Assembly: GCF_012933465.1 (NCBI RefSeq)
Contig: NZ_JABBND010000004.1
Span: 1-64,000 of the forward strand
Origin: Actinomycetospora sp. TBRC 11914
Lineage (GTDB): Bacteria; Actinomycetota; Actinomycetes; Mycobacteriales; Pseudonocardiaceae
Direction of reading: 5' to 3'
Length of the DNA stretch: 64,000 nt
How positions within the stretch are numbered: the first letter of the stretch is position 1; the number at the start of each line of letters is the position of its first letter. A program made the translations under genes and the position numbers. Positions 12,282 to 27,832 of the stretch are shown piece by piece. The notes beneath the pieces are model-generated. The model made no database searches and was not told where the DNA came from. It worked only from the letters and a program-made list of their open reading frames with translations.

Positions 12282-15200
12282 GCCGTTGCGGCTGACCGCC
12301 CTGGTCGCCGGGCTCGTCTCGGTGCTCGCGGCCCTGGCGTTCCCGTTCGCCCCGGTGGCCCGGCCCGACGTCACGTACTCGTGGCCGGCGCCGGGCTCGT
12401 CGTCGCCGGCGCCCGCGGCGATCCCGATGCTGCCCTACCAGCCGGTGACGACGACGGCGTCGGTCACCTGCGACGCGGCCCGCGGCGTCGCCCCGGGCAC
12501 CGTCCTGCTCGCCACGACGCCCCCGCACCCCGACCCGTTGGCGGAACCGCTGCACGGGCTGACGATCACCGCGGGTCCCCCCGGGTCGAGGTCGCTGTCG
12601 GTGTCGGTCGGGGGGCACGACCTCCCGCCGGTGGCGCTGCCGGGCGGCCCGTGCACGATCCGCCTGGTCAGCGGCATCGAGGCGACGACGGTCACCCTGG
12701 TCGCGCCCGCGTCGGAGTCCGTGACGGTGGCCCGGCTCGACGGCGACACCCGGCCGGCCGTCGCGGGGGCGTTCACGGGGGCGCCGACGGCGGCCGGGGT
12801 GTCGCTGTCGGTGGTGGCCGACACCCGGTTCCAGACCTCGGCGAGCGGGTCGAAGATCGCACTCGGCGTGCTGTCGGTGGTCGCGTTCGCGGTGGCGCTG
12901 GGTGCGGTGGTGGTGCTGGCGCGGCGGCGTCAGGGTCGCTCGCGAGACGCCAGCGAAGCGTCGTTGCTTGCATCCAGTGGCAGAAAAGCCCCGTCGTCGA
13001 CCGGCGCGGGAGTCAGCGATGGTCCCCTATCGGCGTGCTCCCCTGCTTCAACACCTGACGTCGGGACGGAGGCTTCCTCACGTCCGCGGCCGCACCGGCT
13101 CGTCGACGTCGGGGTCGTCCTCGGGCTGCTGCTGTGGCAGGTCATCGGCCCGCTGACCGTCGACGACGGCTACATCGCGGGCATCGTGCGGTCCCGCGGT
13201 CAGAACGGGCAGGTCGGCACCGTCTTCCGCTGGCTGAACTCCCCCGAGACGCCGTTCGGCTGGTTCTACGACGTCCTCGCGCTCATCGCCCGCGTCGACC
13301 CCGCCCCCTTCTGGCTGCGGCTCCCGGCGACGGTGCTCGCGATCGTCGGGTGGTTCCTGCTCTCCCGCGCCGTCCTGCCGCGGCTCGGCCTGGAGCGCCT
13401 GCCCCGGCTGGTCCCCTGGCTCACCGGGATCGTCTACCTCGCCTGGTGGCTGCCCTACGACCTCGGTGTCCGCCCGGAGCCGTGGGTGCTGGTCGGGTCG
13501 ACGGCGGTGTTCGTGCTCGCCGAGCGGGCGGTCGAGCGCCGGTCGGTGACCCCGCTCGTCGTCGCGCTGCTGGTCGCCGGCATCACGCTCGCCGTCACGC
13601 CGACCGGGCTCATGGCGTTCGCGCCGCTGGTGGCCGCGGTCGTCCCGCTGATCAAGCTGGTCCGTGCCGACCCGCTGGGGGTGGCCACGTTCGTCGTCGT
13701 CGGGATCGCGGCGCTCGGGCTCACGCTCGTCCTCGTCTACGCCGACCAGACGTGGGCCTCGGTGCTCGACTCCGTCGGCATCCGCACGCTCATCGGCGGC
13801 GACCGGCCCTGGACCGACGAGTACGTGCGCTACACGTCGCTGCTGACGGTCGGCGACGCCGAGGGCAACCTCGGCCGCCGCGCACCGGTCCTGCTGCTGG
13901 CCCTCGCGCTCGGCGCGCTCGCGTTCGTCCGGAACGTGCCGCGACCGCCCGCGGCGCACCGGGTCGTCGTCACCACCCTGCTCTCGCTGGTGGCGCTGGC
14001 GTTCACCCCGACCAAGTGGACCCACCACTTCGGCGCGTTCGCCGTGCTGGGGACCGCGACGACGCTGCTGGCCCTCGACGCGTGGCTGCGGGCGCCCGCC
14101 GACGCCGAGCAGGCGCCGCGGCGGGCGGCGTGGGCGGTGGCGCTGGCGGCCGGGGCGTCGGGGCTCACGCTGGCGGGCTTCAACCAGTGGCACTGGATCT
14201 CCAGCTACGCGATCACGTGGTCGACGATCTCGCCGCAGCTGGGCGGGATCCGGTTCGCCGACGCGGTGCTGGTGCTCGGGGTCGTGCTCGCGGTGGGGTG
14301 CGCGGTCGTCGCGGTGCGCCGGACGCTGCGTCGTGAATGTGCAGATACGGACACTGAACGTCAGCGATGCGACACCGCTGACACCAGGCTCCTCGGGCTC
14401 GCCCCGGCCCTCGCCCTCGCCGTCGTCGTGCTCGTCGTCGCCATCGAGGTGCTCTCGTTCGCCCGGACCGCGGTGCAGCGCCGGGACTCCTACACGCTCG
14501 CCTCGGACTCGGTCGCGTCCCTGCGCGGGCGCTCGTGCGGGATCGCCGACCGGCTCCGCGTCGAGGCCGACCCCACCGCGGGGCTCCTCCCGGCCGACGG
14601 TCCCGGGCCCGTACCCGTGCCGACCGCATCCATGTCCGGCGCCGCGCTCCCCGGCTGGCACGGTCCCGGCGTCACGACGGGCTGGTACTCCCTGCCGCGG
14701 TCCCCGCAGAAGGACACCCCGATCGTCGTGACGCTCACCGGCCCGGTCGCCCACGGCGACGTCGTCGCCGAGCTCGGCACCCGGGGCCCCGACGGCACCG
14801 TCACCGACGTCACCCGCGTCCCGCTCGACGAGGACGCGACGCAGTTCTCGGTGTCGGCCTCGGTCGACGCGCCCCGCTCCCGGGACCTGCGGCTCGACCC
14901 GGCGCTCGCGACGACGCACGCCGCGATCCGGCTCGTCAGCAGCGCCGACACCCCCGCCGGCCGGGGCTTCACGGTCCCGCGCCTCCCGGTGACCGTCCCG
15001 TGGAACACCGTCCTGCCCCCGGGCACGCCCGCCGCGGACGACTGGCCGGGTGCCTTCCTCTTCCCCTGCACGCCGTTCCCGCCGCTGCGCGACGGGATCG
15101 CGGCCCTCCCCGGCTGGCGCGTCTCCACCGACGCCCGCAGCGAGGCCCAGTCGGGCTACATCAGCTACACCGCCTCCCAGGGCGGGCCGTGGACGACGGC

Positions 15201-15381
15201 ACGCGCGCTCGTCCGCCAGGTCCGCTACCCGGTCTACCTGCCGGGGCTGCCGCTGACCGACATCGCGAGCCTGGAGCGGTGGGTCCCGACGGAGCCGCTG
15301 GTCCCGCCGACGGTGACCCGCCACGACGTCGGGCAGTCCGGGCTCACGACGCCTGGCCCGCTGTCGATCGGGGACTCGTAG
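12265..15381 (+). CDS. Emb-type arabinosyltransferase (paralogue 3) with two atypical inserts
   Basis: A 1038-residue Emb-family arabinosyltransferase with acids D300-D301 (VDDGY), FGWFYDVLALIARVD, LRPEP-like VRPEP and the TPTKWTHHFGAF loop. Two segments look foreign to the gene: residues about 226-272 (a Ser/Ala-rich stretch at 12940-13085) and residues about 691-709 (14335-14395). Both have much lower GC and share the 10-mer GTCAGCGATG. Both keep the frame, and the first falls in the cytosolic loop after the first domain. The GTG start overlaps paralogue 2. The TAG abuts a palindromic element. Confidence 0.92.
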   Translation: MSTSDRPLRLTALVAGLVSVLAALAFPFAPVARPDVTYSWPAPGSSSPAPAAIPMLPYQPVTTTASVTCDAARGVAPGTVLLATTPPHPDPLAEPLHGLTITAGPPGSRSLSVSVGGHDLPPVALPGGPCTIRLVSGIEATTVTLVAPASESVTVARLDGDTRPAVAGAFTGAPTAAGVSLSVVADTRFQTSASGSKIALGVLSVVAFAVALGAVVVLARRRQGRSRDASEASLLASSGRKAPSSTGAGVSDGPLSACSPASTPDVGTEASSRPRPHRLVDVGVVLGLLLWQVIGPLTVDDGYIAGIVRSRGQNGQVGTVFRWLNSPETPFGWFYDVLALIARVDPAPFWLRLPATVLAIVGWFLLSRAVLPRLGLERLPRLVPWLTGIVYLAWWLPYDLGVRPEPWVLVGSTAVFVLAERAVERRSVTPLVVALLVAGITLAVTPTGLMAFAPLVAAVVPLIKLVRADPLGVATFVVVGIAALGLTLVLVYADQTWASVLDSVGIRTLIGGDRPWTDEYVRYTSLLTVGDAEGNLGRRAPVLLLALALGALAFVRNVPRPPAAHRVVVTTLLSLVALAFTPTKWTHHFGAFAVLGTATTLLALDAWLRAPADAEQAPRRAAWAVALAAGASGLTLAGFNQWHWISSYAITWSTISPQLGGIRFADAVLVLGVVLAVGCAVVAVRRTLRRECADTDTERQRCDTADTRLLGLAPALALAVVVLVVAIEVLSFARTAVQRRDSYTLASDSVASLRGRSCGIADRLRVEADPTAGLLPADGPGPVPVPTASMSGAALPGWHGPGVTTGWYSLPRSPQKDTPIVVTLTGPVAHGDVVAELGTRGPDGTVTDVTRVPLDEDATQFSVSASVDAPRSRDLRLDPALATTHAAIRLVSSADTPAGRGFTVPRLPVTVPWNTVLPPGTPAADDWPGAFLFPCTPFPPLRDGIAALPGWRVSTDARSEAQSGYISYTASQGGPWTTARALVRQVRYPVYLPGLPLTDIASLERWVPTEPLVPPTVTRHDVGQSGLTTPGPLSIGDS

Positions 15382-15451
15382 GTGCGCTCCGCGCCCGTGA
15401 GCACAAAGTGTCGCTATAGCGGCAGTCAGTGCTCACGAGCGCGGAGCGCAC
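15382..15451. repeat. Palindromic 3'-end element, copy A
   Basis: It begins at the base after the emb TAG. The 46-bp core is 15394-15439. Outer arms extend the stem to 23 bp (15382-15404 with 15429-15451, one mismatch). The centre is CGCTATAG. It lies between two genes of the same direction (emb and dprE1) and is the most diverged core on its right side (GCAGTCAGTGCTCACGAG). Confidence 0.85.
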
Positions 15452-15484
15452 CCAGGCCGCGGCAGGGCGCGCGACGTCGCGCGC

Positions 15485-15490
15485 TAGCCT
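15485..15490 (+). promoter_or_regulatory. Candidate -10 box (TAGCCT) for dprE1
   Basis: TAGCCT ends 7 nt before the ATG at 15498, downstream of palindromic copy A. This is consistent with leaderless transcription of dprE1-dprE2. Confidence 0.4.
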
Positions 15491-15497
15491 CGATCCG

Positions 15498-16868
15498 ATG
15501 CCTCGTTCCGTGGAGACCCTGGTCGGCTGGGCGCGGACCGCCCCGAGCCGCGCGACCGTGCTGTCCGGCGACGAGGTGACCTCGGACGAGAGACTCGCCG
15601 AGACGCTCACGTCCGCGGGCGCCCGCGGCGTGATCGCCCGCGGCCTCGGGCGCTCCTACGGCGACACCGCCCAGAACGCCGGCGGCCTCGTCGTCGACAT
15701 GACCGCGCGGGACCGCGTGCACGCGATCGACGCCGAGACCGGCCTGGTCGACCTCGACGCCGGCGTCTCGCTCGACCGCCTGATGCGCATCGCGCTGCCG
15801 TTCGGGCTGTGGGTGCCGGTGCTGCCCGGGACCCGCCAGGTCACCATCGGCGGCGCCATCGCCAACGACATCCACGGCAAGAACCACCACAGCGCGGGCA
15901 GCTTCGGCGACCACGTGGCCTCGATGGACCTGCTCACCGCGTCCGGGGACGTCCGCCGGCTCGAGCCGGACGGCCCGGAGTCGGAGCTGTTCTGGGCGAC
16001 GGTGGGCGGCATCGGCCTGACCGGCATCATCCTGCGGGCCACGATCCGCATGACGAAGACCGAGACCGCCTACTTCGTCGCCGACACCGAGCGCACGGCG
16101 AACCTCGACGAGACCATCGAGCGCTTCTCCGACGGGTCCGACGAGGCCTACGACTACTCCTCGGCCTGGTTCGACTCCATCTCGACCGGCCCCAAGCTCG
16201 GCCGCGCGGCGCTGGGCCGCGGCTCGCTCGCCCGCCTCGACGAGCTGCCCGAGAAGCTGCGCCGCGACCCGCTCAAGTTCGACGCCCCGCAGCTCGCGAC
16301 GCTGCCCGACGTCTTCCCCAACGGCCTGGCCAACAAGCTGACCTTCTCGGCGATCGGCGAGCTGTACTACCGCAAGACGAAGAACAAGCGGGGCCAGATC
16401 CAGAACCTCACGGCCTTCTACCACCCGCTGGACCTGTTCGGGGACTGGAACCGGGCCTACGGCTCGCAGGGCTTCCTGCAGTACCAGTTCATCGTGCCGC
16501 TGGCCGCCGAGGCCGAGTTCCGGGCGATCATCGCCGACATCGCCGCGTCGGGGCACGTCTCGTTCCTCAACGTCTTCAAGAAGTTCGGCGAGGGGAACCG
16601 CGCGCCGCTGTCGTTCCCGATGCCGGGCTGGAACATCTGCGTCGACTTCCCCATCGTCGACGGGCTCGGCCGGTTCTGCCGCGAGCTCGACGAGCGCGTC
16701 CTCGCCATGGGCGGGCGGCTCTACACCGCGAAGGACTCCCGCACCGACGCCGCGACGTTCGCGGCGATGTACCCGCGGCTCGACGAGTGGCGCAAGGTCC
16801 GCGACACGGTGGACCCGGACGGCGTGTTCGCCTCCGACATGGGTCGCCGCCTCGCCCTGACGTCCTGA
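15498..16868 (+). CDS. dprE1: Decaprenylphosphoryl-beta-D-ribose 2-oxidase DprE1
   Basis: A 456-residue FAD enzyme of the vanillyl-alcohol-oxidase fold, which oxidises decaprenylphosphoryl-ribose at C2 as the first step of epimerisation to the arabinose donor. The N-terminal FAD domain has [17 protein letters not shown] and [22 protein letters not shown]. The substrate domain carries the benzothiazinone-target cysteine at Cys381 ([10 protein letters not shown]) and the active-site lysine at Lys412 (YTAKDSR). Their spacing of 31 equals that of Cys387/Lys418 in M. tuberculosis. ATG 15498 is chosen from the N-terminal match ([17 protein letters not shown]) and the upstream TAGCCT. dprE2 follows after 62 nt. 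Confidence 0.96.
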
Positions 16869-16930
16869 GCTCGCGGCCTCCTGACCTGGGACTCCACCCA
16901 GAGCCTGACACCGACTGACAGGAACACCCC

Positions 16931-17686
16931 ATGATCGACGCCGTCGGCCACCCGTCGTCCCTGCTGCTCCTCGGGGGCACCTCCGAGATCGGCCTGGCCA
17001 TCGCCGAGCGCTACCTCGAGGGCGGCCCGCTGCGGATCGTGCTCGCCGGCCGCCAGTCGACCCGCCTCGCCGACGCCGCCGCCCGACTGTCCCGCGCTGG
17101 GGGCCACGTCGAGACCGTCGAGTTCGACGCCAAGGACGCCGCGGTGCACACCGAGGCGGTCCGCAAGGCGTTCGCCGGCGGGGACATCGACGTCGCCGTG
17201 GTCGCCTTCGGTCTGCTCGGCGACCAGGAGACGGCGTGGCAGGACATCGACGTCGCGGTGGAGCTCGCCGAGGTCAACTACGTGGCGGCGGTGTCGGTGG
17301 GCGTGGCGCTCGCGACGGAGTTCCGCCGCCAGGGCCACGGACGGATCCTGGCGCTCTCGAGCGTGGCCGGGGAGCGCGCCCGGCGCTCGAACTTCGTCTA
17401 CGGCTCGACGAAGGCCGGGATGGACGCCTTCTACACCGGCCTCACCGAGGCGCTTCGGCCCGACGGCATCGGCGTCACGATCGTCCGCCCCGGCTTCGTG
17501 CACACGAAGATGACGACGGGCATGGACGCCGCACCGCTCTCGACGACGCCGGAGAAGGTCGCCGAGATCGCGGTGGACGCCGTCACCAAGGGCCACGAGC
17601 TGGTGTGGGCGCCGGCCCCGCTCCGCGCCGTCATGTCCGTGCTGCGCCACATCCCGCGCCCGATCTTCCGGCGCCTGCCCGTATAG
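16931..17686 (+). CDS. dprE2: Decaprenylphosphoryl-2-keto-ribose reductase DprE2
   Basis: A 251-residue short-chain dehydrogenase that reduces the DprE1 product to decaprenylphosphoryl-arabinose, donor for all the arabinosyltransferases here. The N-terminal cofactor loop is GGTSEIGLAIAERY. The catalytic set is Ser144 (LALSSVAG), Tyr157 and Lys161 (YGSTK). The C-terminus has the hydrophobic and basic RHIPRPIFRRL tail. It is paired with dprE1 as in mycobacteria. The TAG is followed directly by palindromic copy B. Confidence 0.95.
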   Translation: MIDAVGHPSSLLLLGGTSEIGLAIAERYLEGGPLRIVLAGRQSTRLADAAARLSRAGGHVETVEFDAKDAAVHTEAVRKAFAGGDIDVAVVAFGLLGDQETAWQDIDVAVELAEVNYVAAVSVGVALATEFRRQGHGRILALSSVAGERARRSNFVYGSTKAGMDAFYTGLTEALRPDGIGVTIVRPGFVHTKMTTGMDAAPLSTTPEKVAEIAVDAVTKGHELVWAPAPLRAVMSVLRHIPRPIFRRLPV

Positions 17687-17756
17687 GTGCGCTCCGCGCT
17701 CGTGAGCAGAAAGTGTCGCTATAGCAGCACTTTGTGCTCACGAGGCCGCAGGCCAC
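17687..17756. repeat. Palindromic 3'-end element, copy B
   Basis: It starts at the base after the dprE2 TAG. The core is 17699-17744. On the right it encodes the last dozen codons and the stop of the convergent acyltransferase gene. The outer arms differ: GTGCGCTCCGCG on the left, CGCAGGCCAC on the right. Confidence 0.85.
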
Positions 17757-19230
17757 CCAGCGCGCGGCGGCAGGGCTCCTCGACCCACCGGTACGCGAGG
17801 TGGGCCACCAGCACGGACCCGACGAGCACGTGCGGCACCGCCAGCGCCGCGAGCGAGCTGTTCGGCGCCAGCGCCGGGAACCGCGTCATCGCCACCACGG
17901 TGATCTCGATGAGCGGGAAGTGCACGAGGTAGATCGCGTAGGAGATCCGCCCGCCGTGCTGCAGCCTCGGGTGCGACAGGAACCGCACCACCCCGCCCCG
18001 CGCGAGGCACAGCGCCCCGAGCAGCAGCGGGAACATCGGCACCGCGAACCACAGCCGGTCCGCCGCCGGGATCGCCGCCGAGGCCGGGGCGGAGGCCGCC
18101 CAGTAGGCCACCAGCACGGTCTCGGCCACCACGCCGAGCACGATCCGCTGCGCCCAGAGCTCCACCCGCGGGGTGCGCTCGATCCGCGCCACGACCAGCC
18201 ACGTCAGCATCCCCGCGGTGAACCCGCCGCCGATGCGCAGCGCCCACGCCCAGGCCCCCGTCTCGCCGGACTCCGCCGAGCCCAGCGACACCAGCGCGAT
18301 CGGTGAGGCGGCCACGACGGCGAGCGCGCCCAGCACCGGCAGCGGCCAGTTCCGGATGCGCCACGCGCCGAGCACGAGCAGCGGGAAGCACAGGTAGGCC
18401 AGCCACTCGGCGCTGACCGACCACGCGGGCAGCACGAACGAGATCCCCTCGATGCCCCGCGAGTCCCACAGCTGGGTCATCGTCAGCTGGCGCAACCAGC
18501 CCCACGGTCCGAGGTCGGGCTGCGGGGACTGCCACGTCACCACCCCGTCGTGCCCGAACGCCAGGCGGGCGGCGCACCAGACCCCGAAGGCGACCGTGAC
18601 CACGGCGTAGAGCGGCCAGACCCGGGCGACGCGCGCCCGCAGGAACGCCCAGACGCCGGCCGGCGTCGGGCGCTCGCCCAGGCGCGCCAGGTAGGCCCGG
18701 GTGAGCACGAGGCCCGAGAGCACGAAGAACAGGTCCACGCCGAGCGGCCCCGCGGCGACCAGCGGCGCGATCGGCGCGGTCCAGCGCGCGAACACGTCGC
18801 CGGGCACGTAGGAGGCGTGCAGGAGCAGCACCCACACCGCGGCGACGCAGCGCAGCCCGGTGAGCTGCGGGATGTCGCCCCGCGAGGTCCCGACGGCGGG
18901 TGTGCCCGGCCGCGGCTCCCGGGTGGGCGCGGCGACCGCCGGGGTCGGCGCGGTCCCGCGCGTGCGGGGCAGCGGCAGCACGGAGGGCGCCGAGGACAGC
19001 GCGGTCACGGTGGCACCCGACGGCGCCGCGGCGGGGACGGCCGCCAGCGGCGTCGTCGGCAGCCGCGTGAGGCCGGCGGCGCCCAGCGCGCCGTCCGGTC
19101 CGCGGCGACCGGTCCGTGTCGTGAGCGCGGTCAGCGTCCCCACGTGCTGCCTCCCCGACGGTCGTGGACTGGGCGACCCGGTCGGTGTGACCGCGCCGCT
19201 CGATGAAGGGAACGGCGCCGCGCGGCCCAT
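17719..19230 (-). CDS. Membrane acyltransferase (acyltransferase-3 / OafA family)
   Basis: About 503 residues. A Pro/Ala/Thr-rich N-terminal region of some 120 residues is followed by about ten membrane segments starting at QLTGLRCVAAVWVLLLHAS. The conserved family histidine is in that first helix. RARVARVWPLY and FVLSGLVLTRAYL are further family marks. Such enzymes O-acylate sugars of cell-surface polysaccharides using acyl-CoA. The acceptor is unknown, though the arabinogalactan genes make a wall glycan plausible. The C-terminus (RREHK-type, ending KVLL) is encoded by palindromic copy B. ATG 19230 has a GGAG 8 nt upstream; a shorter start inside the Pro-rich part is possible. Confidence 0.85.
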   Translation of the reverse strand: MGRAAPFPSSSGAVTPTGSPSPRPSGRQHVGTLTALTTRTGRRGPDGALGAAGLTRLPTTPLAAVPAAAPSGATVTALSSAPSVLPLPRTRGTAPTPAVAAPTREPRPGTPAVGTSRGDIPQLTGLRCVAAVWVLLLHASYVPGDVFARWTAPIAPLVAAGPLGVDLFFVLSGLVLTRAYLARLGERPTPAGVWAFLRARVARVWPLYAVVTVAFGVWCAARLAFGHDGVVTWQSPQPDLGPWGWLRQLTMTQLWDSRGIEGISFVLPAWSVSAEWLAYLCFPLLVLGAWRIRNWPLPVLGALAVVAASPIALVSLGSAESGETGAWAWALRIGGGFTAGMLTWLVVARIERTPRVELWAQRIVLGVVAETVLVAYWAASAPASAAIPAADRLWFAVPMFPLLLGALCLARGGVVRFLSHPRLQHGGRISYAIYLVHFPLIEITVVAMTRFPALAPNSSLAALAVPHVLVGSVLVAHLAYRWVEEPCRRALGGLRPREHKVLL

Positions 19231-19519
19231 TCCTGATACTCCGTTCAGTGGATCGACGGAGCGGGCCCCGGATAGCCGTCAGTACCTCGGGTCACGCCCG
19301 GCACGGTGGGTGACCGATCCGACCCGCCCACGCTCCTGGACCCCCTCGACGGGGCGGTCCGTCCTCCTCCCCGATGGAGTGCCGAGCCGCCCCGGCCGCG
19401 TCGTCACGACCCCGGTCACGGCCCGTGACTCCCGGACCCGGCCACGGGACCGGACGTGTGCCCGCCTACCGTGACCGGGTTGCCGCCGGAGGGGGAGGCG
19501 GCCGAGGAGGAACGTTGTC

Positions 19520-21739
19520 GTGACCAGGGGCCAGACCATGGCCGACCCGGGCCTGGGGCCCGAGTCGGCGCGCCCGGAACCGGCCGGGGATCACCCACAC
19601 GGGGTCGACCCCCACTCGAGGCACCCCGACGTCTCGCTCCTCGCGGTCGGTGGTTTCGCCGTGGTCACCGCGGTCGCGACGCTCGCGGTGAACGCGGCCT
19701 ACAACCAGGGCCACGTCGTCCCCCCGCTCGACGACGTCTACATCCACCTCCAGTACGCCCGCCAGCTCGGGCTCGGCGAGTTCCTGCGCTACCAGCCGGG
19801 TGCGCCGCCCACCACGGGCGCGAGCAGCCTGCTCTACGTCCTGCTGCTCGGCGTCGTGGCGGTCGTCGTGCCGTCGGGCCTGCTGCTCCACGCCGCGCTG
19901 GCCCTCGGGGTGGTGTGCTTCGCGGGCACCGTCGTGCTGGTCGCCCTGCTCGGCCGGGCACTGGCCTCGCGGCGCGCGGGCACCGTCGCGGCCGTCCTCA
20001 CCGCGCTGTGCGGGCCGCTGCTGTGGGGCGCCACGAGCGGGATGGAGGTCGGCCTCGTCGCGCTGCTCGCGACGGCGACGCTCCTGGCGTTCGTCCGCGA
20101 GCAGCACGAGGGCCGCTTCCGGGTGCTCCCGTGGCTCGCCACCCTGCTGGTCCTGACGCGGCCCGAGGGGCTCGTCCTCGTCGTCGCGGTCCTGCTCGGG
20201 GTGGCGGCGACCCTGGTCGCGCGGCACCGGCGCGGCCTCGACCCCGCCGGCCGGCTCGTCCCGGTCGCGACGCGCTGCCTGGTGCCGCTGGCCGCGGCGC
20301 TCGGGCAGTTCCTGCTGTACCGGTTGCTCACCGGGTCGGCGGAGAACAGCGGGATCACCGCGAAGTCGTGGTTCTCCCGGTCGCTGGGGTCACCGCTCGA
20401 GGTCCTCGACCGCGTCGTCGCGACAGTGCAGACCGCCCTGCAGCTCGTCGGCGGGGTCGCGACGACGGAGGTCGCGGGCCCCGGTGTCGCCGTGCTCGTG
20501 GCGCTGGGGCTGGCCGCGCTCGCGCTGGGCCGCCCGCCGCGCCGGATCGTCGCGGGCGTGCTCGGCCTCGGGCTGGCCGGGGTGCTCCTCGCGGTCGCCA
20601 CGCTGCAGACCGCGCTCTGGCAGGACGGGCGCTACCTGCAGCCCTTCCTGCCGGTCGTGGTGCTGCTCGCCGTCCTGGGGACCCGGGCCGTCGGGCGGGC
20701 CGCCGCCGACGCGCGCCGGGGCCGCGTGCTCACTGCGGGCATCGTCGCGGTGCTGCTCGCGTTCGGCCTCGTCTCGGCCCCGACCTGGGCGCTGCGCGGG
20801 GGTCAGCAGGCGTCGGGCATCCGCGAGTCCGCGGTGTCGGTGTCGCAGTGGCTGCACGGCCACACCCCGCCGACCGCGGTGGTCGGGGTCAACGACGCCG
20901 GGGCCGTCGCCTGGTTCTCCGGGCGGCGCGTGGTCGACCTCGTCGGCCTGACGACGCCGGGCCTGGCCCGCCCCGCCCTCGAGGGCTCGGGCGCGATGTA
21001 CGAGGCGCTGGCCCACCTGCCGGTGGACCGGCGGCCGACGTACTTCTCGGTGTTCGACCACACCGAGCTGCTCCCGGTCGGCGAGCTCCAGGCAGCGCGG
21101 ATCTTCGGCGATCGGCCGCTGGTCTCGTTCGACGCGAAGAGCCCCGACCGCGACCCCGGTCCCTTCGGCGGCATCTGCCAGACGACCGGCGACTGCCGGG
21201 TGATCAGCGTGTGGCGCGCGGACTGGTCGCACGTCGGCAGCGGCGACGCCCCCGACGCCCCGGTGCCCGGCCGCGTCGTCGACCACCTCAACGTCGGCGA
21301 CCTCGCCGACGAGGCCGCCCACGGCTACGGCGTCGACCGCGCCCTCGTCGGGCTCGGCGACTCCACCGAGGTGCGCTCCCAGGCCGACCCCGGCGGGCGG
21401 GTGGTCGTCGACAGCGGGCGCCACGTCGTCGGCGGGGAGCACTTCGTGCTGCGCGGGCTCACCCCCGGGCGGCCGGTGACCCTGACGGCGCGGGTCGACG
21501 CCCGCGAGCCGGTGGCGGACCGCAACACCGAGGCCGGCGTCGTCGCCGTGGGCGCGGACGGCCACCGGGTCGGCGACTGGGCGTTCGCCACGGGCCCCGG
21601 GTCGTGGGCGCAGTCGTCGGTGACGATCCCCGGTCCGGACGTCAGGTCCGGCACGCTCGAGGTCACCCTCGGCCCCCGTCAGCCCTACCTGGCGCCCTAC
21701 CCCGACTACCACTCGTTCGGCTACTGGGCGTCCCAGTAG
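19520..21739 (+). CDS. GT-C type membrane glycosyltransferase-like protein
   Basis: A 739-residue integral membrane protein with about ten hydrophobic segments and a C-terminal extracytoplasmic domain from about residue 450. The first loop has the acidic pair LDDVYIHLQYARQ, the GT-C hallmark. A later VGVNDAGAVAWFSGRRVVDLVGL motif recurs in related GT-C proteins of actinobacteria. The organisation recalls the arabinosyltransferase AftB, but I cannot assign a substrate. GTG is chosen because AGGAGG lies 9 nt upstream. The gene is divergent from the acyltransferase, with 289 bp between them and no gene seen there. The stop abuts palindromic copy C. Confidence 0.8.
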   Translation: MTRGQTMADPGLGPESARPEPAGDHPHGVDPHSRHPDVSLLAVGGFAVVTAVATLAVNAAYNQGHVVPPLDDVYIHLQYARQLGLGEFLRYQPGAPPTTGASSLLYVLLLGVVAVVVPSGLLLHAALALGVVCFAGTVVLVALLGRALASRRAGTVAAVLTALCGPLLWGATSGMEVGLVALLATATLLAFVREQHEGRFRVLPWLATLLVLTRPEGLVLVVAVLLGVAATLVARHRRGLDPAGRLVPVATRCLVPLAAALGQFLLYRLLTGSAENSGITAKSWFSRSLGSPLEVLDRVVATVQTALQLVGGVATTEVAGPGVAVLVALGLAALALGRPPRRIVAGVLGLGLAGVLLAVATLQTALWQDGRYLQPFLPVVVLLAVLGTRAVGRAAADARRGRVLTAGIVAVLLAFGLVSAPTWALRGGQQASGIRESAVSVSQWLHGHTPPTAVVGVNDAGAVAWFSGRRVVDLVGLTTPGLARPALEGSGAMYEALAHLPVDRRPTYFSVFDHTELLPVGELQAARIFGDRPLVSFDAKSPDRDPGPFGGICQTTGDCRVISVWRADWSHVGSGDAPDAPVPGRVVDHLNVGDLADEAAHGYGVDRALVGLGDSTEVRSQADPGGRVVVDSGRHVVGGEHFVLRGLTPGRPVTLTARVDAREPVADRNTEAGVVAVGADGHRVGDWAFATGPGSWAQSSVTIPGPDVRSGTLEVTLGPRQPYLAPYPDYHSFGYWASQ

Positions 21740-21810
21740 GTGCGCTGCGCGCTCGTGAGCAGAAAATGTCGCTATAGCGACACTTTCTGCTCACGAGGCC
21801 GGAGGCCACC
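21740..21810. repeat. Palindromic 3'-end element, copy C
   Basis: It fills exactly the space between the TAG of the GT-C gene and the mscL stop. The core 21752-21797 is a 46-bp palindrome with a single mismatch and the centre CGCTATAGCG. Confidence 0.9.
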
Positions 21811-22248
21811 TCAGCGGTCCTGGTGCGGGATCCGTCCTGCCGTGCCGCCGTCGTCGGGGCCGCGGCGGGGCTGCGCCTGCTGGCGCAGCAGATCGCGGAT
21901 CTCGGTGAGGAGCTCGACGTCCGTCGGCTCGGCCGGCCCGGCCTCCTCCCCGCGCTTGCGGCGGTCGGAGATGACCTTGAGCGGGTAGACGACGAGGAAG
22001 TAGATCACCGCGGCCGTGAGGACGAAGGTGATCACGGCGTTGATGAACGAGGCGTAGTCGAAGACCACGCCGTTGACCACGAACGAGCCCGCGAACTCGC
22101 CGCCGCCGGAGAGGAGCTGGATCAGCGGCTTGAGGAAGGCGTTGGTGGTGGCGGTGACCACCGCGGTGAACGCGGCGCCGACGACCACGGCGACGGCGAG
22201 GTCGACGACGTTCCCCCGGAGCAGGAAGTCCTTGAAGCCCTTCAGCAC
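21811..22248 (-). CDS. mscL: Large-conductance mechanosensitive channel MscL
   Basis: A 145-residue channel subunit, pentameric in the family, that opens under membrane tension to release solutes during hypo-osmotic shock. The N-terminal amphipathic helix (MLKGFKDFLLRGNVVDLAVAV) runs into TM1 with the family's small-residue pore lining (VVVGAAFTAVV). The periplasmic loop is short. TM2 (AVITFVLTAAVIYFLVVYPLKVI) is followed by the charged RRKR cluster and a C-terminal helix. GTG start with GAGGGG 6 nt upstream. Confidence 0.95.
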   Translation of the reverse strand: MLKGFKDFLLRGNVVDLAVAVVVGAAFTAVVTATTNAFLKPLIQLLSGGGEFAGSFVVNGVVFDYASFINAVITFVLTAAVIYFLVVYPLKVISDRRKRGEEAGPAEPTDVELLTEIRDLLRQQAQPRRGPDDGGTAGRIPHQDR

Positions 22249-22333
22249 CGCGGTCCCCTCGCACCAGGTAGCTCAAGACGTCGGCGGATTCACCAGCCGA
22301 TCCCGGCTGCACCGTAGGGCCCCCACCGACGAC

Positions 22334-22379
22334 GACGCGCCCGCCACGCCGAGGGGGGAGCTGGCGTGACGGGCGCGTC
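22334..22379 (-). terminator. Hairpin terminator downstream of the small secreted protein gene
   Basis: Arms 22334-22343 and 22370-22379 pair perfectly over 10 bp (GACGCGCCCG), with an inner ACGCC/GGCGT extension. It lies 32 nt beyond the stop at 22412. Confidence 0.55.
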
Positions 22380-22411
22380 GGCGGGGCCGGGTCGTGCAGG
22401 ACCCGGGGCCT

Positions 22412-22729
22412 CTAGTTGGAGGCGGCGATCGGGTTGTGGCAGGACTTGGCGTTGGTGGCCGAGTTGCCCTTCTCCGCCTTCGAGAGCAGCGGGATGTCAC
22501 CCGCGAGGTCCTGGACCGGGACCTGGACGCCGAGCGCGTTGACCGGGACGTCGTTGTTGCAGGCGTCGAGCGAGGTGTTCGGCGCGAAGTCGCTGGAGTT
22601 GATCAGGCCCTTCTGCACGGTCGCGCCGCTGTCGCCGTCGTGCGCGAACGCAGCACCCGTCATGCTGGTGAGTCCGGCGCCGATCAGCGACGTCGCCAGC
22701 ACGGCCTTGCGGAAAGCTCCCACGATCAT
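22412..22729 (-). CDS. Small secreted protein, rodlin/chaplin-like in style
   Basis: A 105-residue protein with a clear signal peptide (basic start, hydrophobic core, AFA cleavage site near residue 29). The mature part has two cysteines (DACNN and KSCHNP), Asn-rich patches and VPVNALGVQVPVQDLAG. That wording resembles small actinobacterial surface proteins such as rodlins and chaplins, but no family can be assigned with certainty. The two cysteines could form one disulfide. ATG 22729 is favoured over the upstream ATG because the signal peptide follows it directly and GAGAGG precedes it. Confidence 0.75.
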   Translation of the reverse strand: MIVGAFRKAVLATSLIGAGLTSMTGAAFAHDGDSGATVQKGLINSSDFAPNTSLDACNNDVPVNALGVQVPVQDLAGDIPLLSKAEKGNSATNAKSCHNPIAASN

Positions 22730-23082
22730 GTCCTCTCGATCTTTGGTCTTCGGGGGCGACCTGGTGATCGCGTGGCGCCACGTAATCAGAACGCGACGCA
22801 CCGTGTCCGACATGGGGCCGAGTGGGCGGTGGGGCCGGCCCTCACCCGTTGGGGACCGCGCTACGTCGCGACGTTCCGTACCCGGATGACCTTTCCGTCA
22901 CGTCATCCCGACACCACACACGATGATCACCCGGGCGAGGAGCGGGACCTGTCACGCTCCGCGTCGCAGGGTTTTCGCGACACCGTCACCTGCTGCGCCG
23001 AGAGGGGGACGAGGCGCGCCCAGTGGCGCCGGCCGTGTCGCGAGCCGGGAAGCGCCCCCGACGACCCGATAGCGTCCGCCGC
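22730..23082. other. Divergent intergenic region, no gene seen
   Basis: 353 bp between the secreted-protein gene and the MFS gene. It is less GC-rich than its surroundings. It holds a perfect 12-bp palindrome ACGTCGCGACGT at 22863-22874, which could be an operator, and the MFS -10 candidate at its end. No small ORF with a convincing ribosome-binding site is visible. Confidence 0.4.
23070..23075 (+). promoter_or_regulatory. Candidate -10 box (TAGCGT) for the MFS gene
   Basis: TAGCGT ends 7 nt before the GTG at 23083, again in the leaderless arrangement, and fixes that start over an upstream in-frame ATG. Confidence 0.4.
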
Positions 23083-24432
23083 GTGTCCACCGAGTCGGCC
23101 GCCGCGCCGCCGCGCACCCTCGGTCCGCTGGTCTCCTGGGCTGCCTGGGACTGGGGATCGGCCGCCTTCAACGCGGTCATCACGACCTTCGTCTTCACCG
23201 TCTACCTGACCTCCGGCGTCGCCGCCGACGAGGCCTCGGGGTCGTCCGCGCTGGCGAACACGATCGCCATCGCGGGAGTGCTCGTGGCGCTCACCGCGCC
23301 GGTCTACGGGCAGCGCAGCGACGCGTCGGGAGCCGAGCACGGCCGGCAGCGGCGCCTCGGCGCGCTCACCGCGGTGATCGTCGTCGCGACCGCCCTGATG
23401 TTCTTCGTGCAGGGCTCGCCGTCCTACCTGCTGCTCGGGCTGGTCCTCCTCGGGATCGGGACCTTCGCCTACGAGCTCGCGCAGGTGGAGTACAACGCGA
23501 TGATCTACCGGCTGGCGCCGCCCGGACGCACCGGGTGGGTGTCCGGCGTCGGCTGGTCGGCGGGCTACCTCGGCGGGATCGTGCTGCTGATCGTCTGCCT
23601 CGTGCTGTTCATCGCGCCGATCGGGGTCATCACGTTCCCCTCGCCCGACCTCGGGCCGCGGGTGATCGCCCTCGTGTGCGCCGCGTGGTTCGCGGTCTTC
23701 GCGATCCCGGTGCTGCTGATGCGCTTCCCGTACCCGGCGCCTCCCGGCGACGCCGAGGCCGCGCGCGTCGGGTGGTTCGGTTCCTACGCGCTGCTGGTGC
23801 GCCGGCTCGTCGCGCTCGGGCACAGCGACCGCAACCTGCTCGGGTTCCTCGTCGCGAGCGCGGTCTACCGCGACGGGCTGACCGCGGTGTTCACCTTCGG
23901 GGGCGTCCTGGCGGCGGGCACCTTCGGGCTCAGCCAGACCGAGGTCATCTTCTTCGCGATCGCCGCCAACGTGGTCTCGGCGGTCGGGGCCGTGGTCGGA
24001 GGCCTGTTCGACGACCGCATCGGGCCGAAGCGGGTCGTGGTCGTCTCGCTGATCGCGCTCGTGATCGTGGCCGCGGCGCTGCTCCCCGCGTCGGGGAAGG
24101 CGGCCTTCTGGACGGGCGGCCTGGTGCTCTCGCTGTTCGTCGGCCCGGCCCAGGCGTGCTCCCGCAGCTACCTCGCCCGGCTCGTCCCCCCGGGGCGCGA
24201 GGGAGAGATCTTCGGTCTGTACGCGACGACGGGCCGGGCCGTCAGCTTCCTCGCTCCCGCCCTGTTCAGCCTGTTCATCACGCTGTTCGGCGAGCAGCGC
24301 TGGGGGATCGCGGGGATCGGGATCGTGCTGCTCGTGGGGCTCGGCGCGCTGCTGCCGGTGCGGCCGGTGCCGGGGCGGGTGGGGGCCGGCGCGGCGTCCG
24401 TCGAGGCGGCGCCGTCGGCGGACGCCGGCTGA
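23083..24432 (+). CDS. MFS transporter, UMF1/Atg22-like family
   Basis: A 449-residue protein with about twelve hydrophobic segments. The opening (WAAWDWGSAAFNAVITTFVFTVYL), APVYGQRSD in loop 2-3 and GRTGWVSGVGWSAGYLGGI in the middle are characteristic of the UMF1 (Atg22-like) branch of the major facilitator superfamily. The substrate is unknown; eukaryotic relatives export amino acids from vacuoles. The GTG start is set by the preceding TAGCGT. It is a single gene, convergent with the next across 78 bp. Confidence 0.88.
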   Translation: MSTESAAAPPRTLGPLVSWAAWDWGSAAFNAVITTFVFTVYLTSGVAADEASGSSALANTIAIAGVLVALTAPVYGQRSDASGAEHGRQRRLGALTAVIVVATALMFFVQGSPSYLLLGLVLLGIGTFAYELAQVEYNAMIYRLAPPGRTGWVSGVGWSAGYLGGIVLLIVCLVLFIAPIGVITFPSPDLGPRVIALVCAAWFAVFAIPVLLMRFPYPAPPGDAEAARVGWFGSYALLVRRLVALGHSDRNLLGFLVASAVYRDGLTAVFTFGGVLAAGTFGLSQTEVIFFAIAANVVSAVGAVVGGLFDDRIGPKRVVVVSLIALVIVAAALLPASGKAAFWTGGLVLSLFVGPAQACSRSYLARLVPPGREGEIFGLYATTGRAVSFLAPALFSLFITLFGEQRWGIAGIGIVLLVGLGALLPVRPVPGRVGAGAASVEAAPSADAG

Positions 24433-24510
24433 GTAGCGCCGGCCGGCCGCGCCCGCGAGGGCACCGCAGGCAGGCCCGCGGGGCGCCAGAGCTGCCCCAC
24501 GTGCTCCTGA

Positions 24511-25215
24511 TCAGCCGAGACGGGCCGCGAGGAAGCGAATCAGCCGGGACGCCAGCTCGCCGACGAACGCCCAGAACACGGCGGCGATCAGCGAGTTCAC
24601 GATCAGCATGACGGTCGGGTTCGCGGGGACGAACAGGTCGCGGAACCCCAGGATGACGATGTCCGCGACGGCACCGACGAACTGCGCGACGCCGTTGGCC
24701 GGGTTGACCCCGACCAGGACCAGCACGACGTTCACCACGAGCACCAGGGCGAACAGCAGCGCCAGCGTGCGCACCACCGTGGCCAGCACGTTGCCGGTGC
24801 GCCAGGCGAGCTCACCGACGTCGATCGACCGGTGCCGCTGGGAGCCCGACGGCCGCTCCGGCTCGGCCCAGGACGTGTCCCCCCGGCCCCGCTGCGCCGC
24901 CGACCCGTCGTCGGCGATCCGCTCGGTCTTCTGCTCGGCGGGGGCGGCCGTCTTCTCGGTCTTCTGCTCCGCCGGCTGCTCGTGCTTCTCGGTCTTCTGC
25001 TCGCTGGGGGCGGCCGACTTCTCGGTCTTCTGCTCCGCCGGCTGCTCGTGCTTCTCGGTGGGGTCCTCGGAGGGCGCCTGCGCCTCGGCAGCCGCGTTCC
25101 CGGTCGCCTCGTCGTTCGCGGCGTGCCGCCCCGTGCTCTCGCCGGACGCGGCGTCCTGGGCGGCGCTCTCGCCGCCGGCCGACGCCGTCTTCTCCTCGGT
25201 TCCCTGCTCCGCCAT
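24511..25215 (-). CDS. Lys/Glu-rich repeat protein with two C-terminal membrane segments
   Basis: A 234-residue protein. Residues 1-130 are charged and low in complexity, with repeats of the type EKHEQPAEQKTEK. Two hydrophobic segments follow (about 145-170 and 205-225), with DVGELAWRTGNVLATVVRTLALLF and FVGELASRLIRFLAARLG at their borders. The membrane half resembles small actinobacterial membrane proteins of unknown role. The N-terminal half is probably disordered and cytosolic. A 41-bp perfect direct repeat inside the gene shows recent expansion. ATG start. Function unknown. Confidence 0.75.
   Translation of the reverse strand: MAEQGTEEKTASAGGESAAQDAASGESTGRHAANDEATGNAAAEAQAPSEDPTEKHEQPAEQKTEKSAAPSEQKTEKHEQPAEQKTEKTAAPAEQKTERIADDGSAAQRGRGDTSWAEPERPSGSQRHRSIDVGELAWRTGNVLATVVRTLALLFALVLVVNVVLVLVGVNPANGVAQFVGAVADIVILGFRDLFVPANPTVMLIVNSLIAAVFWAFVGELASRLIRFLAARLG
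24953..25059. repeat. 41-bp perfect direct repeat inside a coding region
   Basis: 24953-24993 and 25019-25059 are identical 41-mers in the same frame (66 nt apart). They encode the repeated HEQPAEQKTE segment of the Lys/Glu-rich protein. Confidence 0.85.
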
Positions 25216-25354
25216 GCGCCGAATGATGCACCGCCGTGCGCCGTCACCCGACGGCGGGCGCGTTCGCCGGTCGGGAAATGCGTTGAACCCGGCCCGGCGG
25301 GTCCGCCACCGTGGGGCGGCCGTGAGGTGCGCAACGGACGAGGAGGAGGCCCCC

Positions 25355-25789
25355 GTGGACGCCGCCGAGCACACCCCCACCGTGGTGCGCCCCCGCCTGC
25401 CCCGCGCCGAGTTCGCCGACGCGCTGGCCGCGTGGCTGGAGGAGGGCCTCGCCGCGCGCGGCGACGGCGCGTCGCCCGTCGGCGCGGCCGTCGTCCTCGT
25501 CCCGGAGTACCTCCACGCGGGCGCCCCCCGCGTCCTCGCCGACCTCGCCGCCCGCGACTGGACCGGCACCGTCGTCGCCGTCGTCGGCTACGGCGGCTGC
25601 ACCCGCGGCCGCCACGCGATCGAGGACGCCCGGGAGGTCCTCCGGGCGGCCGGCGCGGAGGTGCTCGGGGAGGCGCTGGGCATCGACGCCGCCCGGGTCC
25701 GCGCGACCGGCTTCGACGCCGCCGACGTGCTCCTGCGCGAGGCCCTCCTCGGTGCCCTCCGGGCTCGTGAGCAGAAACTGCCGCTATGA
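25355..25789 (+). CDS. NADPH-dependent FMN reductase-like protein (flavodoxin fold)
   Basis: A 144-residue protein. The parts VLVPEYLHAGAPRVLADL and GTVVAVVGYGGCTRGRHAIEDAREVLRAAGAEVLG follow the pattern of the second half of SsuE-like FMN reductases (P-Y--G-P--LK, then a Gly-rich strand-loop). The first part is shorter than usual and lacks a clear phosphate-binding loop, so FMN binding is uncertain. GTG is chosen because GAGGAGG lies about 7 nt upstream. The last codons (REQKLPL) and stop lie in palindromic copy D. Confidence 0.65.
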   Translation: MDAAEHTPTVVRPRLPRAEFADALAAWLEEGLAARGDGASPVGAAVVLVPEYLHAGAPRVLADLAARDWTGTVVAVVGYGGCTRGRHAIEDAREVLRAAGAEVLGEALGIDAARVRATGFDAADVLLREALLGALRAREQKLPL

Positions 25790-25822
25790 CGACACTTTCT
25801 GCTCACGAGCGCGGGAGCGCAC
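25752..25822. repeat. Palindromic 3'-end element, copy D
   Basis: The core is 25764-25809 (left arm with AACTGCCGCTATGAC replacing the usual AAGTGTCGCTATAGC). It spans the 3' end of the flavin-reductase-like gene and ends one base before the glfT2 stop. The two genes are convergent. Confidence 0.85.
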
Positions 25823-27832
25823 CTACCGGAAGCGCTCGAAGACCTGCTCGTCCCACGCCTCCCGGCTGACCAGCTCCGGCATGCCCTCGCGGTAGCGGCG
25901 ACGCAGCGCCGGCCAGGCCCGCAGGACCTGCTGGTGCAGCGCGAGCGAGACCCGCAGCAGCTCCCAGAACTGCCGACGGTCGCGCTTGCGGTACGTCACG
26001 CCGGTGCCGTCGGAGGTGGAGACGGTGGCGCCGTCGAGGCGGGAGAGCAGGAACCAGGTGCCGTGCTCGGCCGGGACGTTGCGCTGCGGCCGGTCCCAGG
26101 CCGCCCGGTCGGCGGGGCGCAGTTGGTGGGCCAGGGCCCCGGCCAGCGCCTTGACCTGCGCGACCTTTCCGAGCGGCGGCTCCGGCCACAGCTGGGCGGC
26201 GAGCGCGCCGATCGGCGGCTCGGGGAGGTCGCGGGCGCTGGGGTGGACGGTGCCGTCGGGGTAGCGCGCGCGGGTGGCGCGGACGCTGCCGAGCGTGGTC
26301 GGCAGGGCCCCGAAGAGCGCCTTCGGGCCCGAGAGGAAGTCGCGCATCGCCATCTGGTGCAGCGCGATCGCCGAGTACTCGAGCAGGAAGAGGTGCCGCA
26401 GGGTGCGCTTGAGCGAGTCGAGCAGCATCGGCTTCGGGTCGTCGGGGCCGTGCAGGGCGGCGACGACGAGCCGGTTGCGCGCGTGGAAGTAGGCCTGCCA
26501 GTCCGAGCTGTCGTCCTTCTCGACGAAGCTCATGTGCCAGATCGCGACGCCGGGCACGGTCGCCGTCGGGAAGCCCGCCGCGCCGGCCCGCAGGCCGTAC
26601 TCGCAGTCGTCCCACTTGATGAACAGCGGCAGCGGCTGGCCGACCTGCTCGGCGACGACGCGCGGGATCAGGCACATCCACCAGGCGTTGTAGTCGACGT
26701 CGGTGCGCCGGTGCATCCAGAGCGTCTCGCGCAGGGAGTCGACGGCGAAGTCGTGGTCGTCCTCGGTGTGCGGCGCGATCTGCCAGAAGAAGGTGTTCCG
26801 GTCGACCACCTCGCCCATGGCGTGCAGGTGCGACCGGGCCTGCAGGGACAGCATCTGCCCGCCGACCAGCATCGGGGCGCGGGCGAAGCGGGCGAACGCG
26901 AGCGCCCGCAGCACCGAGTCCGGCTCGAGGACGACGTCGTCGTCCATGAACAGGATGTGCTCGCAGTCGGTGTGCTCGAGCGCCTCGTACATGATCCGGC
27001 TGTAGCCGCCGGAGCCGCCGAGGTTGGGCTGGTCGACGATCCGGAGCCGGTCGCCGAGCAGCGCCGCGGCCTCGTCGTACCCCTCCTGGTCGCGGACCTT
27101 CGAGGTGCCCTGGTCGGGGATGACGACGGCGGTGAGCACGTCGCGCACCAGCGGGTCCTCGCCGAGGGCGCGCAGGGTGGCGACGCAGTCGGTGGGCCGG
27201 TTGAACGTCGGCATCCCGACGGTGACCGCGGCCCGCCCGGGCGCGGAGCGGTCGGCGTACCAGCCGCCGGAGACCAGGTCGAGGTGCTCGCTCTCGCTGG
27301 TGAGGTCGAACCAGATCCACCCGCCGTCCTCGAAGGGGCGCAGCGCGACGGGCACGTCGAGCGAGGTCTCGCCGGCGACGACCTCGCCGTGCACGTGGAC
27401 CGGCACCCCGCGCGCGGTGGAGCGGTAGACGTCGACGCGGCCGGCGCCGGTCAGGTGCAGCCGCAGGTGGACGGCGTCGAGGATCGACCAGCGCCGCCAG
27501 TACGAGGCCGGGAAGGCGTTGAAGTAGGCCGCGAACGACGTCTCGGTGCCCGGCGGGATCCGCACGGCGGTGCGGGAGAGCACCTCGGCGTGCCGGCCGC
27601 CGGAGGACGCGAGGTGCAGCACGAAGTCGTCGGCCTCGGTGTTCACCGTGCCCGGGCGCTCGGCGGTGGGCGCGGCCGAGCGCAGCGACGTCGCGGTGCC
27701 CTCGTCGAGGTAGAGCGCACGCACCGTCGCCGGGTCGGCGGGCCGGGGCAGGATGATCCGCTGGAGGAGGGCGGACTCGGCGTCGCGCACCGTCAGCTCC
27801 ACCGTCGACCGGCCCTCCCGCGTGCTCGTCAT
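25823..27832 (-). CDS. glfT2: Galactofuranosyltransferase GlfT2 (galactan polymerase)
   Basis: A 669-residue GT2-family polymerase that adds alternating beta-1,5 and beta-1,6 Galf from UDP-Galf. N-terminal beta-sandwich to about residue 215, then the GT-A domain (VTVGMPTFNRPTDC), then a helical C-terminal domain. The metal-binding triad is D297-D299 (FMDDD). The catalytic acid is in WDDCEY (D408-D409), and His433 is in IWHM. The D409-to-His433 spacing of 24 equals D372-H396 in M. tuberculosis GlfT2. NQPNLGGSGGY and FPASYWRRW are further family marks. ATG 27832 fits TACCGT 6 nt upstream. Confidence 0.94.
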   Translation of the reverse strand: MTSTREGRSTVELTVRDAESALLQRIILPRPADPATVRALYLDEGTATSLRSAAPTAERPGTVNTEADDFVLHLASSGGRHAEVLSRTAVRIPPGTETSFAAYFNAFPASYWRRWSILDAVHLRLHLTGAGRVDVYRSTARGVPVHVHGEVVAGETSLDVPVALRPFEDGGWIWFDLTSESEHLDLVSGGWYADRSAPGRAAVTVGMPTFNRPTDCVATLRALGEDPLVRDVLTAVVIPDQGTSKVRDQEGYDEAAALLGDRLRIVDQPNLGGSGGYSRIMYEALEHTDCEHILFMDDDVVLEPDSVLRALAFARFARAPMLVGGQMLSLQARSHLHAMGEVVDRNTFFWQIAPHTEDDHDFAVDSLRETLWMHRRTDVDYNAWWMCLIPRVVAEQVGQPLPLFIKWDDCEYGLRAGAAGFPTATVPGVAIWHMSFVEKDDSSDWQAYFHARNRLVVAALHGPDDPKPMLLDSLKRTLRHLFLLEYSAIALHQMAMRDFLSGPKALFGALPTTLGSVRATRARYPDGTVHPSARDLPEPPIGALAAQLWPEPPLGKVAQVKALAGALAHQLRPADRAAWDRPQRNVPAEHGTWFLLSRLDGATVSTSDGTGVTYRKRDRRQFWELLRVSLALHQQVLRAWPALRRRYREGMPELVSREAWDEQVFERFR

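Follow-up and report, generated by a model that had tools for sequence, protein, structure and literature searches.

What are the palindromes of constant length that stand at the 3' ends of genes in Actinomycetospora sp. TBRC 11914, and how did they come to share their letters? The stretch of DNA analysed, referred to here as the window, comprises bases 1-64000 of contig C34 (NZ_JABBND010000004.1) of a genome of 6.5 Mb in 63 contigs with 74% GC. An original prediction, made from the letters of the window, had pointed out four full copies and one half copy of a palindromic element, and all five were recovered, the constant 46-bp core that it described being present in each of the four full copies. 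We read them as bidirectional 3'-end elements, probably terminators, of the family Pseudonocardiaceae, seen here in their Actinomycetospora form and spread and homogenised by copying; we put the probability of this reading at roughly 0.6. The copies, with one arm as an example, are located as follows.

15378 to 15455: copy A, a full 78-bp element with core 15397-15436 (40 bp), both arms of GCGC type (cmsearch, 90.2/87.4 bits)
15384 to 15394, forward strand: hairpin forming the left arm of copy A, GCGC stems around a TCC loop (GGA when read on the opposite strand)
17683 to 17760: copy B, core 17702-17741, left arm GCGC, right arm GGCC (cmsearch)
21736 to 21813: copy C, core 21755-21794, left arm GCGC, right arm GGCC (cmsearch)
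25748 to 25826: copy D, core 25767-25806, right arm loop GGGA (cmsearch)
1 to 34: half copy (right half) severed by the contig end, arm GCGC-GCCA-GCGC (from the sequence)

The unit is about 78 bp long and consists of a core palindrome of fixed length between two small arm hairpins. From the outside inwards it reads AGGTG, arm hairpin, about two bases, GTGAGCA, nine variable bases and the centre GCTATAGC, followed by the mirror image, and the core measures 40 bp from GTGAG to CTCAC or 46 bp with CTC and GAG added. The motif GAGCAGAAAGTG, with up to two mismatches allowed, matches 11 times in the window against 1.73 expected, a count reached by none of 100 shuffles. A core of 40 bp is found in 52 of the 53 copies examined from this genome and, in seven stretches sampled from six genomes of three genera with any length from 16 to 70 bp allowed, in 50 of 52 cores (reversed controls 0), while the other strong hairpins in gene gaps of this genome's sample span 27-62 nt. 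The centre is GCTATAGC in this genome and GTTAGAAC or GTTCTAAC in most of the copies displayed from the genomes G098 and G105.

The outer arms had been said to pair with each other in copy A; as a rule they do not, each arm being a hairpin of its own. The alignment on which pairing was judged, also the basis of the covariance model, holds 13 copies entered on both strands, giving 26 rows that are hence not independent; in these rows no cell of the arm stems is unpaired, and CG/GC swaps occur on both sides. A structure of three hairpins leaves 93.5% of cells paired compared to 85.1% in shuffled alignments, and it lies above all 500 shuffles in this respect as well as in cells changed on both sides and in covariation score; the number of double-change pairs (reached by 322 of 500 shuffles) and of pair types (276 of 500) was not above shuffled level in the 26 rows. 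Pairing of arm to arm gives 86.2% against 85.9% shuffled and is matched by 193 of 500 shuffles, so that pairing between arms is at background level; copy A seems to pair in this way because both of its arms are of GCGC type. Among the 53 elements of this genome an arm stem of at least 4 bp is present on 94 of 106 sides, and the arm loop takes the form GNA on 87 sides and GNNA on 6 when the strand that has the arm after the core is read. The GNA loop also occurs on 24 of 34 sides in the genus genomes G001, G014 and G016. Saccharopolyspora copies (n=9) are without such arms, with a stem of 4 on one of 18 sides, and by eye they sit some bases beyond an ordinary stop. Predicted RNA folding energy averages -52.1 kcal/mol for 25 of the 53 elements (z -8.4 against mononucleotide shuffles).

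Several variants of this plan were noticed. At L014 (about 1535-1590) the right arm and its CACCT edge are tandemly duplicated, a possible trace of arm copying. A sister subfamily with GTGAAC...GTTCAC ends and arm hairpins is found at L060:16842-16922, L064:17300-17376, L069:1354-1502 and L072:5673-5748; the L060 core is 40 bp by count, and L069 contains two cores close together. An apparently collapsed element between convergent genes, L062:6235-6274, retains two arms with TAG edges and nearly no core.

The position of the elements relative to genes was determined with a codon-score gene caller built for this analysis, which defines gene ends throughout. None of the 52 GTGAG cores in the seven stretches of six genomes lies within a predicted gene; convergent gaps hold 29, tandem gaps 22 and a divergent gap one, against a background in those stretches of 230 convergent and 234 divergent among 1188 adjacent gene pairs. 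In a looser list of 24 elements, four fall in a predicted gene, two of them where a gene ends inside the element and two belonging to the GTGAAC subfamily. The same leaning towards 3' ends is seen in other hairpins of this genome (19 in convergent, 28 in tandem and one in a divergent gap), a point in favour of a function at 3' ends.

Stop codons are closely tied to the element edges. A count over 104 sides with a readable arm gave TAG at the edge on 48, a stop inside the element on 30 (mostly the TGA of GTGAGC), no gene on 19 and another arrangement on 7. In the sample of this genome 26 of 38 element-ending genes close with TAG, against 39 of 305 others (odds ratio 14.8, p 7.5e-13). GGTG is preceded by TA on 7 of the 56 sides without an edge TAG, the rate for all GGTG of the sample being 1.1%, and by TA, CA, TG or GA on 39, the general rate being 14%. 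It seems that the A belongs to the element and that the preceding T is retained where a stop results. A simple duplication of a TA target may occur but is not the rule, CA, TG and GA being commoner at free edges than the enriched TA. In the window, copies A, B and C start right after an upstream TAG, as had been noted of three copies, and D has a TAG at its right edge. Location between convergent genes had likewise been proposed for three copies; it holds for B and C and probably for D, A lying between tandem genes. The claim that copy C fills its convergent gap proved exact, the stops being at 21739 and 21811.

The family is neither scattered inside genes nor confined to the window. With the covariance model, 24 elements were found in a 395-kb sample of this genome, the weakest being the collapsed L062, and at least 75 palindromes genome-wide, and a 23-base half-element pattern with at most three mismatches gave 148 + 125 matches against 4 + 4 for the reversed control. 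Extrapolated from the 395-kb sample, the whole genome may hold about 400 elements, weak ones included. The search of related genomes for the core that the original prediction had proposed yielded matches to the model in 18 of 18 genus genomes (G011 by 4 strand hits only) and in 3 of 43 other genomes searched; a 40-base core pattern occurs at no fewer than 80 loci in named genomes, with 71 Actinomycetospora and 9 Saccharopolyspora among the matches listed; A. chiangmaiensis and A. soli are among the named species that carry the family. One of the three genomes outside the genus, G060, from another family of the order, has a single full element (L271:1501-1578), which may reflect transfer or contamination.

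A wider pattern, GTGAGTG..CACTCAC, was found in 46 of 90 family genomes. Fourteen of these, from 8 genera, have 14-457 sites against 0 or 1 in the controls; most others have 1-5 sites, and two of the 46 are uninformative owing to high controls. By eye, G021 and G019 have arms and core on the same plan in different letters. The exact-length pattern matches 5 of 246 class genomes, this genome included (61 sites); three of the others have one site each, apparently not palindromic. The remaining one, G332, of another actinomycete family, has five GTGAG sites of the same exact length in other letters, by eye palindromic to varying degree. Named plasmids and phages gave no match for one element of this genome, nor did named plasmids for one G021 element. 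A search for fresh insertions in the close pair G017/G002 returned one doubtful match each in 69 and 120 kb with a finder ill-suited to their dialect; the covariance model gives 63 and 61 strand hits in these two genomes.

Whether the sequence itself is kept, and not only the shape, as had been claimed, depends on the scale of comparison: within a genome it is kept; from one species to another the inner stem takes other letters and retains its pairing, and the 40-bp length is preserved. For 96 elements in 9 groups, restricted to cores with GTGAGCA and GCTATAGC and with three Saccharopolyspora species lumped as one group, the inner stem difference was 0.265 within and 0.555 between groups, a separation reached by none of 2000 label permutations. 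Half of an inner stem differs by 0.147 from its own partner and by 0.275 from the partner in another copy of the same group. The inner stems are species dialects, in which letters are replaced between species and pairing is preserved.

Comparison of the same sites in two species shows how these dialects are distributed. Nine sites could be compared with the nearest relative, G013, and elements are shared at six of them, of which one is degraded in G013 and one is interrupted in this genome by an insertion sequence. Three of these six had been chosen on account of an element in G013, a bias towards sharing; among the remaining six of the nine sites 3 are shared. G013 is empty at copy A and at C3:199436, and one arm remains at copy D. 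When the degraded and the interrupted sites are left out, the four shared sites give pair differences of 0.23, 0.46, 0.50 and 0.65 (mean 0.46), against 0.47 for random cross pairs; within G013 these copies lie 0.08-0.11 from the others, and ours lie 0.23-0.33 from other copies of this genome. One element common to G014 and G016 has a near-identical core and right arm and a left arm of wholly different type. The unlikeness at the same site and this swap of an arm point to copying of blocks between elements rather than slow change site by site. The interrupted element, at L214:1102-2525, carries in its centre a transposase gene (402 aa, rve, with a weak IS481 leucine-zipper match), and G013 has this element without the transposase gene.

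Elements have also been gained and lost at orthologous sites. Copy A is an apparent gain at a pre-existing TAG: its site has no element and a plain TAG at that place in six relatives (G001, G003, G013, G014, G015 and G016), among them the two nearest by DprE1. At the site of copy B an element is present in G003, G014, G015 and G016, degenerate in G006, and none was seen in G001, G007, G011 and G012; at that of copy C one is present in G003, G013, G014 and G016, and none was seen in G001, G007 and G011. The site of copy D holds no element in G001, G003, G007, G011, G014 and G016 and a single arm in G013; by eye, the stops of the facing frames overlap there as CTAG in G001, G014 and G016 and as TTAG in G003. 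Losses seem to leave arms or scars, as in G013 at copy D and in G014 at the site of G016:84124.

Taken as transcript ends, the hairpins would serve one gene or two convergent genes, and the role of bidirectional terminator put forward in the original prediction is still the best candidate function as judged from the sequence. A strong hairpin without a U-run might halt RNA polymerase, shield the RNA 3' end, or both, in either direction, and stop codons in the frames entered would allow a gene that runs into the element to terminate nonetheless. Copies would be seeded at gene ends, as at copy A where the TAG was already there, and lost again by deletion. Within a genome they could be homogenised by mutual copying, so that at sites partly in common each species would come to write its inner stems in a dialect of its own; such copying might proceed through the blocks that the copies have in common, AGGTG, GTGAGCA and the centre, by template switching or conversion.

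A number of observations weigh against this account. No TTTT follows within 15 nt downstream (0 of 106 sides). Core mismatches in 17 elements oriented by a single gene are without RNA-side bias (9 GU vs. 7 AC), and a constraint on the RNA side was rejected on these counts. A terminator needs no fixed length, as illustrated by the 27-62 nt of the other hairpins, and the core is nevertheless 40 bp in all copies of this genome except one; the strict length may be set by a protein ruler or may simply be inherited from common copies. Neither a partner gene nor a clean target duplication was found. Other genomes show the preference for TAG weakly or not at all (5 of 11 in G016, 4 of 10 in G014, 1 of 4 in G001, 2 of 7 in G098 and 1 of 17 in G105). 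Finally, among 63 ortholog comparisons the element is absent in 36 and present in 27, each element being counted once per partner genome and one absence being a copy that is degenerate by eye. Another stem of at least 10 bp turns up in 69 of 720 control windows and at 14 of the 36 element-free sites, the degenerate copy and three coding stretches of site D being counted among the 14, so that exchange of hairpin for hairpin is only suggested.

It is conceivable, though we lend it little credence, that the Pseudonocardiaceae possess a machine, including a protein that measures the 40-bp hairpin, which both ends transcripts at these sites and carries new copies of the element into stop codons elsewhere, and that hundreds of gene ends are rewritten together when the dialect changes, making this a gene-drive-like element domesticated as a genomic 3'-end signal. 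Should our main reading be right, this would be a bacterial 3'-end signal that evolves as a family and not site by site, its positions partly staying while its letters are replaced species by species at fixed length. It would offer a natural system for studying what measures 40 bp and by what means short repeats multiply when no transposase is known for them, would help to show how terminators and stop codons arise by insertion, and would account for the high use of TAG at element-ending genes of this genome and perhaps for contig breaks.

Much of the same evidence bears on a selfish, non-autonomous element resembling miniature inverted-repeat transposable elements (MITEs), with no host function, inserted at TA or stop codons and purged from genes. 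The apparent gain of copy A at a TAG already present in six relatives, the excess of TA (7 of 56) and of TA, CA, TG or GA (39 of 56) before GGTG at edges without TAG, and dialects compatible with bursts of spread all fit such an origin, which we nevertheless consider unlikely: a single core in 52 lies in a divergent gap though such gaps are as common as convergent ones, and purging of insertions in genes is insufficient to explain this; flanking duplications are not consistent; and the Y1 transposase, the only family surveyed genome-wide, is found in none of 18 genomes. A long autonomous element with the same ends was sought in one facing pair of half-sites about 1.1 kb apart, taken from among the first of the 273 half-element matches, and the pair turned out to be two full elements. 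They frame a gene with a weak AbiEi_4 match at L213:1946-3045.

The constancy of the core raises the question of a dedicated dimeric or length-measuring protein acting in the nucleoid, segregation, DNA uptake or RNA processing, for which the hairpin would be a by-product of a symmetric site and whose changes the dialects would track. The 50 of 52 cores at exactly 40 bp, the constant GTGAG ends with a centre kept as GCTATAGC, GTTAGAAC or GTTCTAAC, and mismatches without RNA-side bias are what such a site would be expected to display. Replacement of the inner stem between species with pairing kept (0.147 vs. 0.275) is unneeded by a protein that reads bases, the arms are self-hairpins and thus a structure signal, and no candidate protein was found, all of which makes this explanation quite improbable in our view. 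We see hardly any room for ordinary intrinsic terminators that are alike through common descent or chance. Their location and folding would be terminator-like, as observed here, but other hairpins in the same gaps vary from 27 to 62 nt against the 148 + 125 pattern matches (control 4 + 4), copies of two species at the same site are not the most similar, and the half-element count, the dialects and the same-site comparison contradict such a view.

No description of this family was found in the literature searched, and an Rfam search of the window gave no match above gathering score, in keeping with the earlier remark that the family was not a recognised one. MITEs such as RUP, Correia and Nezha are small inverted-repeat units spread in trans; the elements described here resemble them in their inverted ends and in presence and absence at orthologous sites, and differ in their strict 3'-end placement and in that no matching transposase ends were found in the material examined. 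As to classical intrinsic terminators, the GC-rich hairpin at the gene 3' end is present and the T-run after the stem is absent. Hairpin-only (I-shaped) terminators form a class with a stable 3'-end hairpin and no T-run, which the present elements, to judge by their sequence, would resemble. Stem-loops at 3' ends are widespread in bacteria; stable ones have been described as preferring convergent gaps and positions just after stops, and some as possible bidirectional terminators (PMC1590033). Our elements differ in having letters and length common to the copies of a genome, and no T-run.

REP elements with GTAG or CGTC tags are presented in one study as short multicopy palindromes, mostly between unidirectional and convergent genes, those with CGTC having no dedicated transposase (PMC3733652). 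The likeness to REP/RAYT systems as outlined there lies in the many short palindromes, the similar placement and the transposase-free state of CGTC REPs (PMC3733652). By the same account, REPs are 20-40 bp long with a fixed GTAG or CGTC tag, whereas the element here has 78 bp, three hairpins, a stop codon at its edge and NAGGTG-like sequences with variable N at both ends (PMC3733652). It also has species dialects at shared sites. A REP-type element moved by RAYT, one of the possibilities raised at the outset, found no support, the Y1 domain PF01797 being absent from the search results of our own genome and of 18 genus genomes and found in 5 of 14 named control genomes.

DNA uptake sequences (DUS) are short, mostly single, and used at 3' ends and terminators. 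With their many copies, species dialects and 3'-end use they provide the nearest parallel for species-wide rewriting, from which the present unit probably differs as a 78-bp palindrome whose arm motif has only 12 scattered matches outside elements plus the half copy at the contig end. The occurrence of dialects among the uptake sequences of Neisseriaceae is stated in PMC3630211. GTGAGCA alone occurs 105 times inside genes of the 395-kb sample against 39 expected overall by a dinucleotide chain that ignores codon use.

The genes adjoining the window copies are listed below.

12286 to 15381, forward strand: Emb-type arabinosyltransferase gene upstream of copy A (Pfam PF04602, PF14896, PF17689)
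15510 to 16868, forward strand: DprE1-type oxidase gene downstream of copy A (Pfam FAD_binding_4, ALO)
16931 to 17686, forward strand: DprE2-type short chain dehydrogenase gene, left of copy B (Pfam PF00106)
19520 to 21739, forward strand: 739-aa gene left of copy C (no Pfam match)
21811 to 22248, reverse strand: MscL gene right of copy C (Pfam PF01741)
25823 to 27832, reverse strand: GlfT2-type galactofuranosyltransferase gene right of copy D (Pfam PF19320, PF17994)

Copy A is flanked by the tandem Emb-type gene (stop TAG 15379-15381) and dprE1, a name that we take from the gene pair and context; a gene of this type is present in 18 of 18 genus genomes. Copy B lies between the forward gene that is presumably dprE2, with its TAG at the edge, and an acyltransferase gene on the reverse strand with its stop inside the core, and copy C is the whole gap between the convergent stops of the forward 739-aa gene (TAG) and the reverse mscL (TGA). 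The right edge of copy D is the TAG of the reverse glfT2, and its core centre is the end of a forward open reading frame, 24608-25789 (393 aa), the frame of which is conserved at 49-62% in 6 of 7 relatives searched. An overlapping reverse frame, 24511-25215, is likewise conserved and is favoured by the codon-score gene caller.

Together, the Emb, DprE1, DprE2 and GlfT2 types suggest that the region 12286-27832, which holds the copies, is likely an arabinogalactan cell wall cluster; its gene order is the same in the relatives compared except G015, G013 having been seen in part only. Contigs C34 (window 1-34) and C11 (G000:C11:1-74) start inside an element and C4 has a half element near its start (G000:C4:25-47), so that hairpin repeats of this kind perhaps cause contig breaks in assembly.

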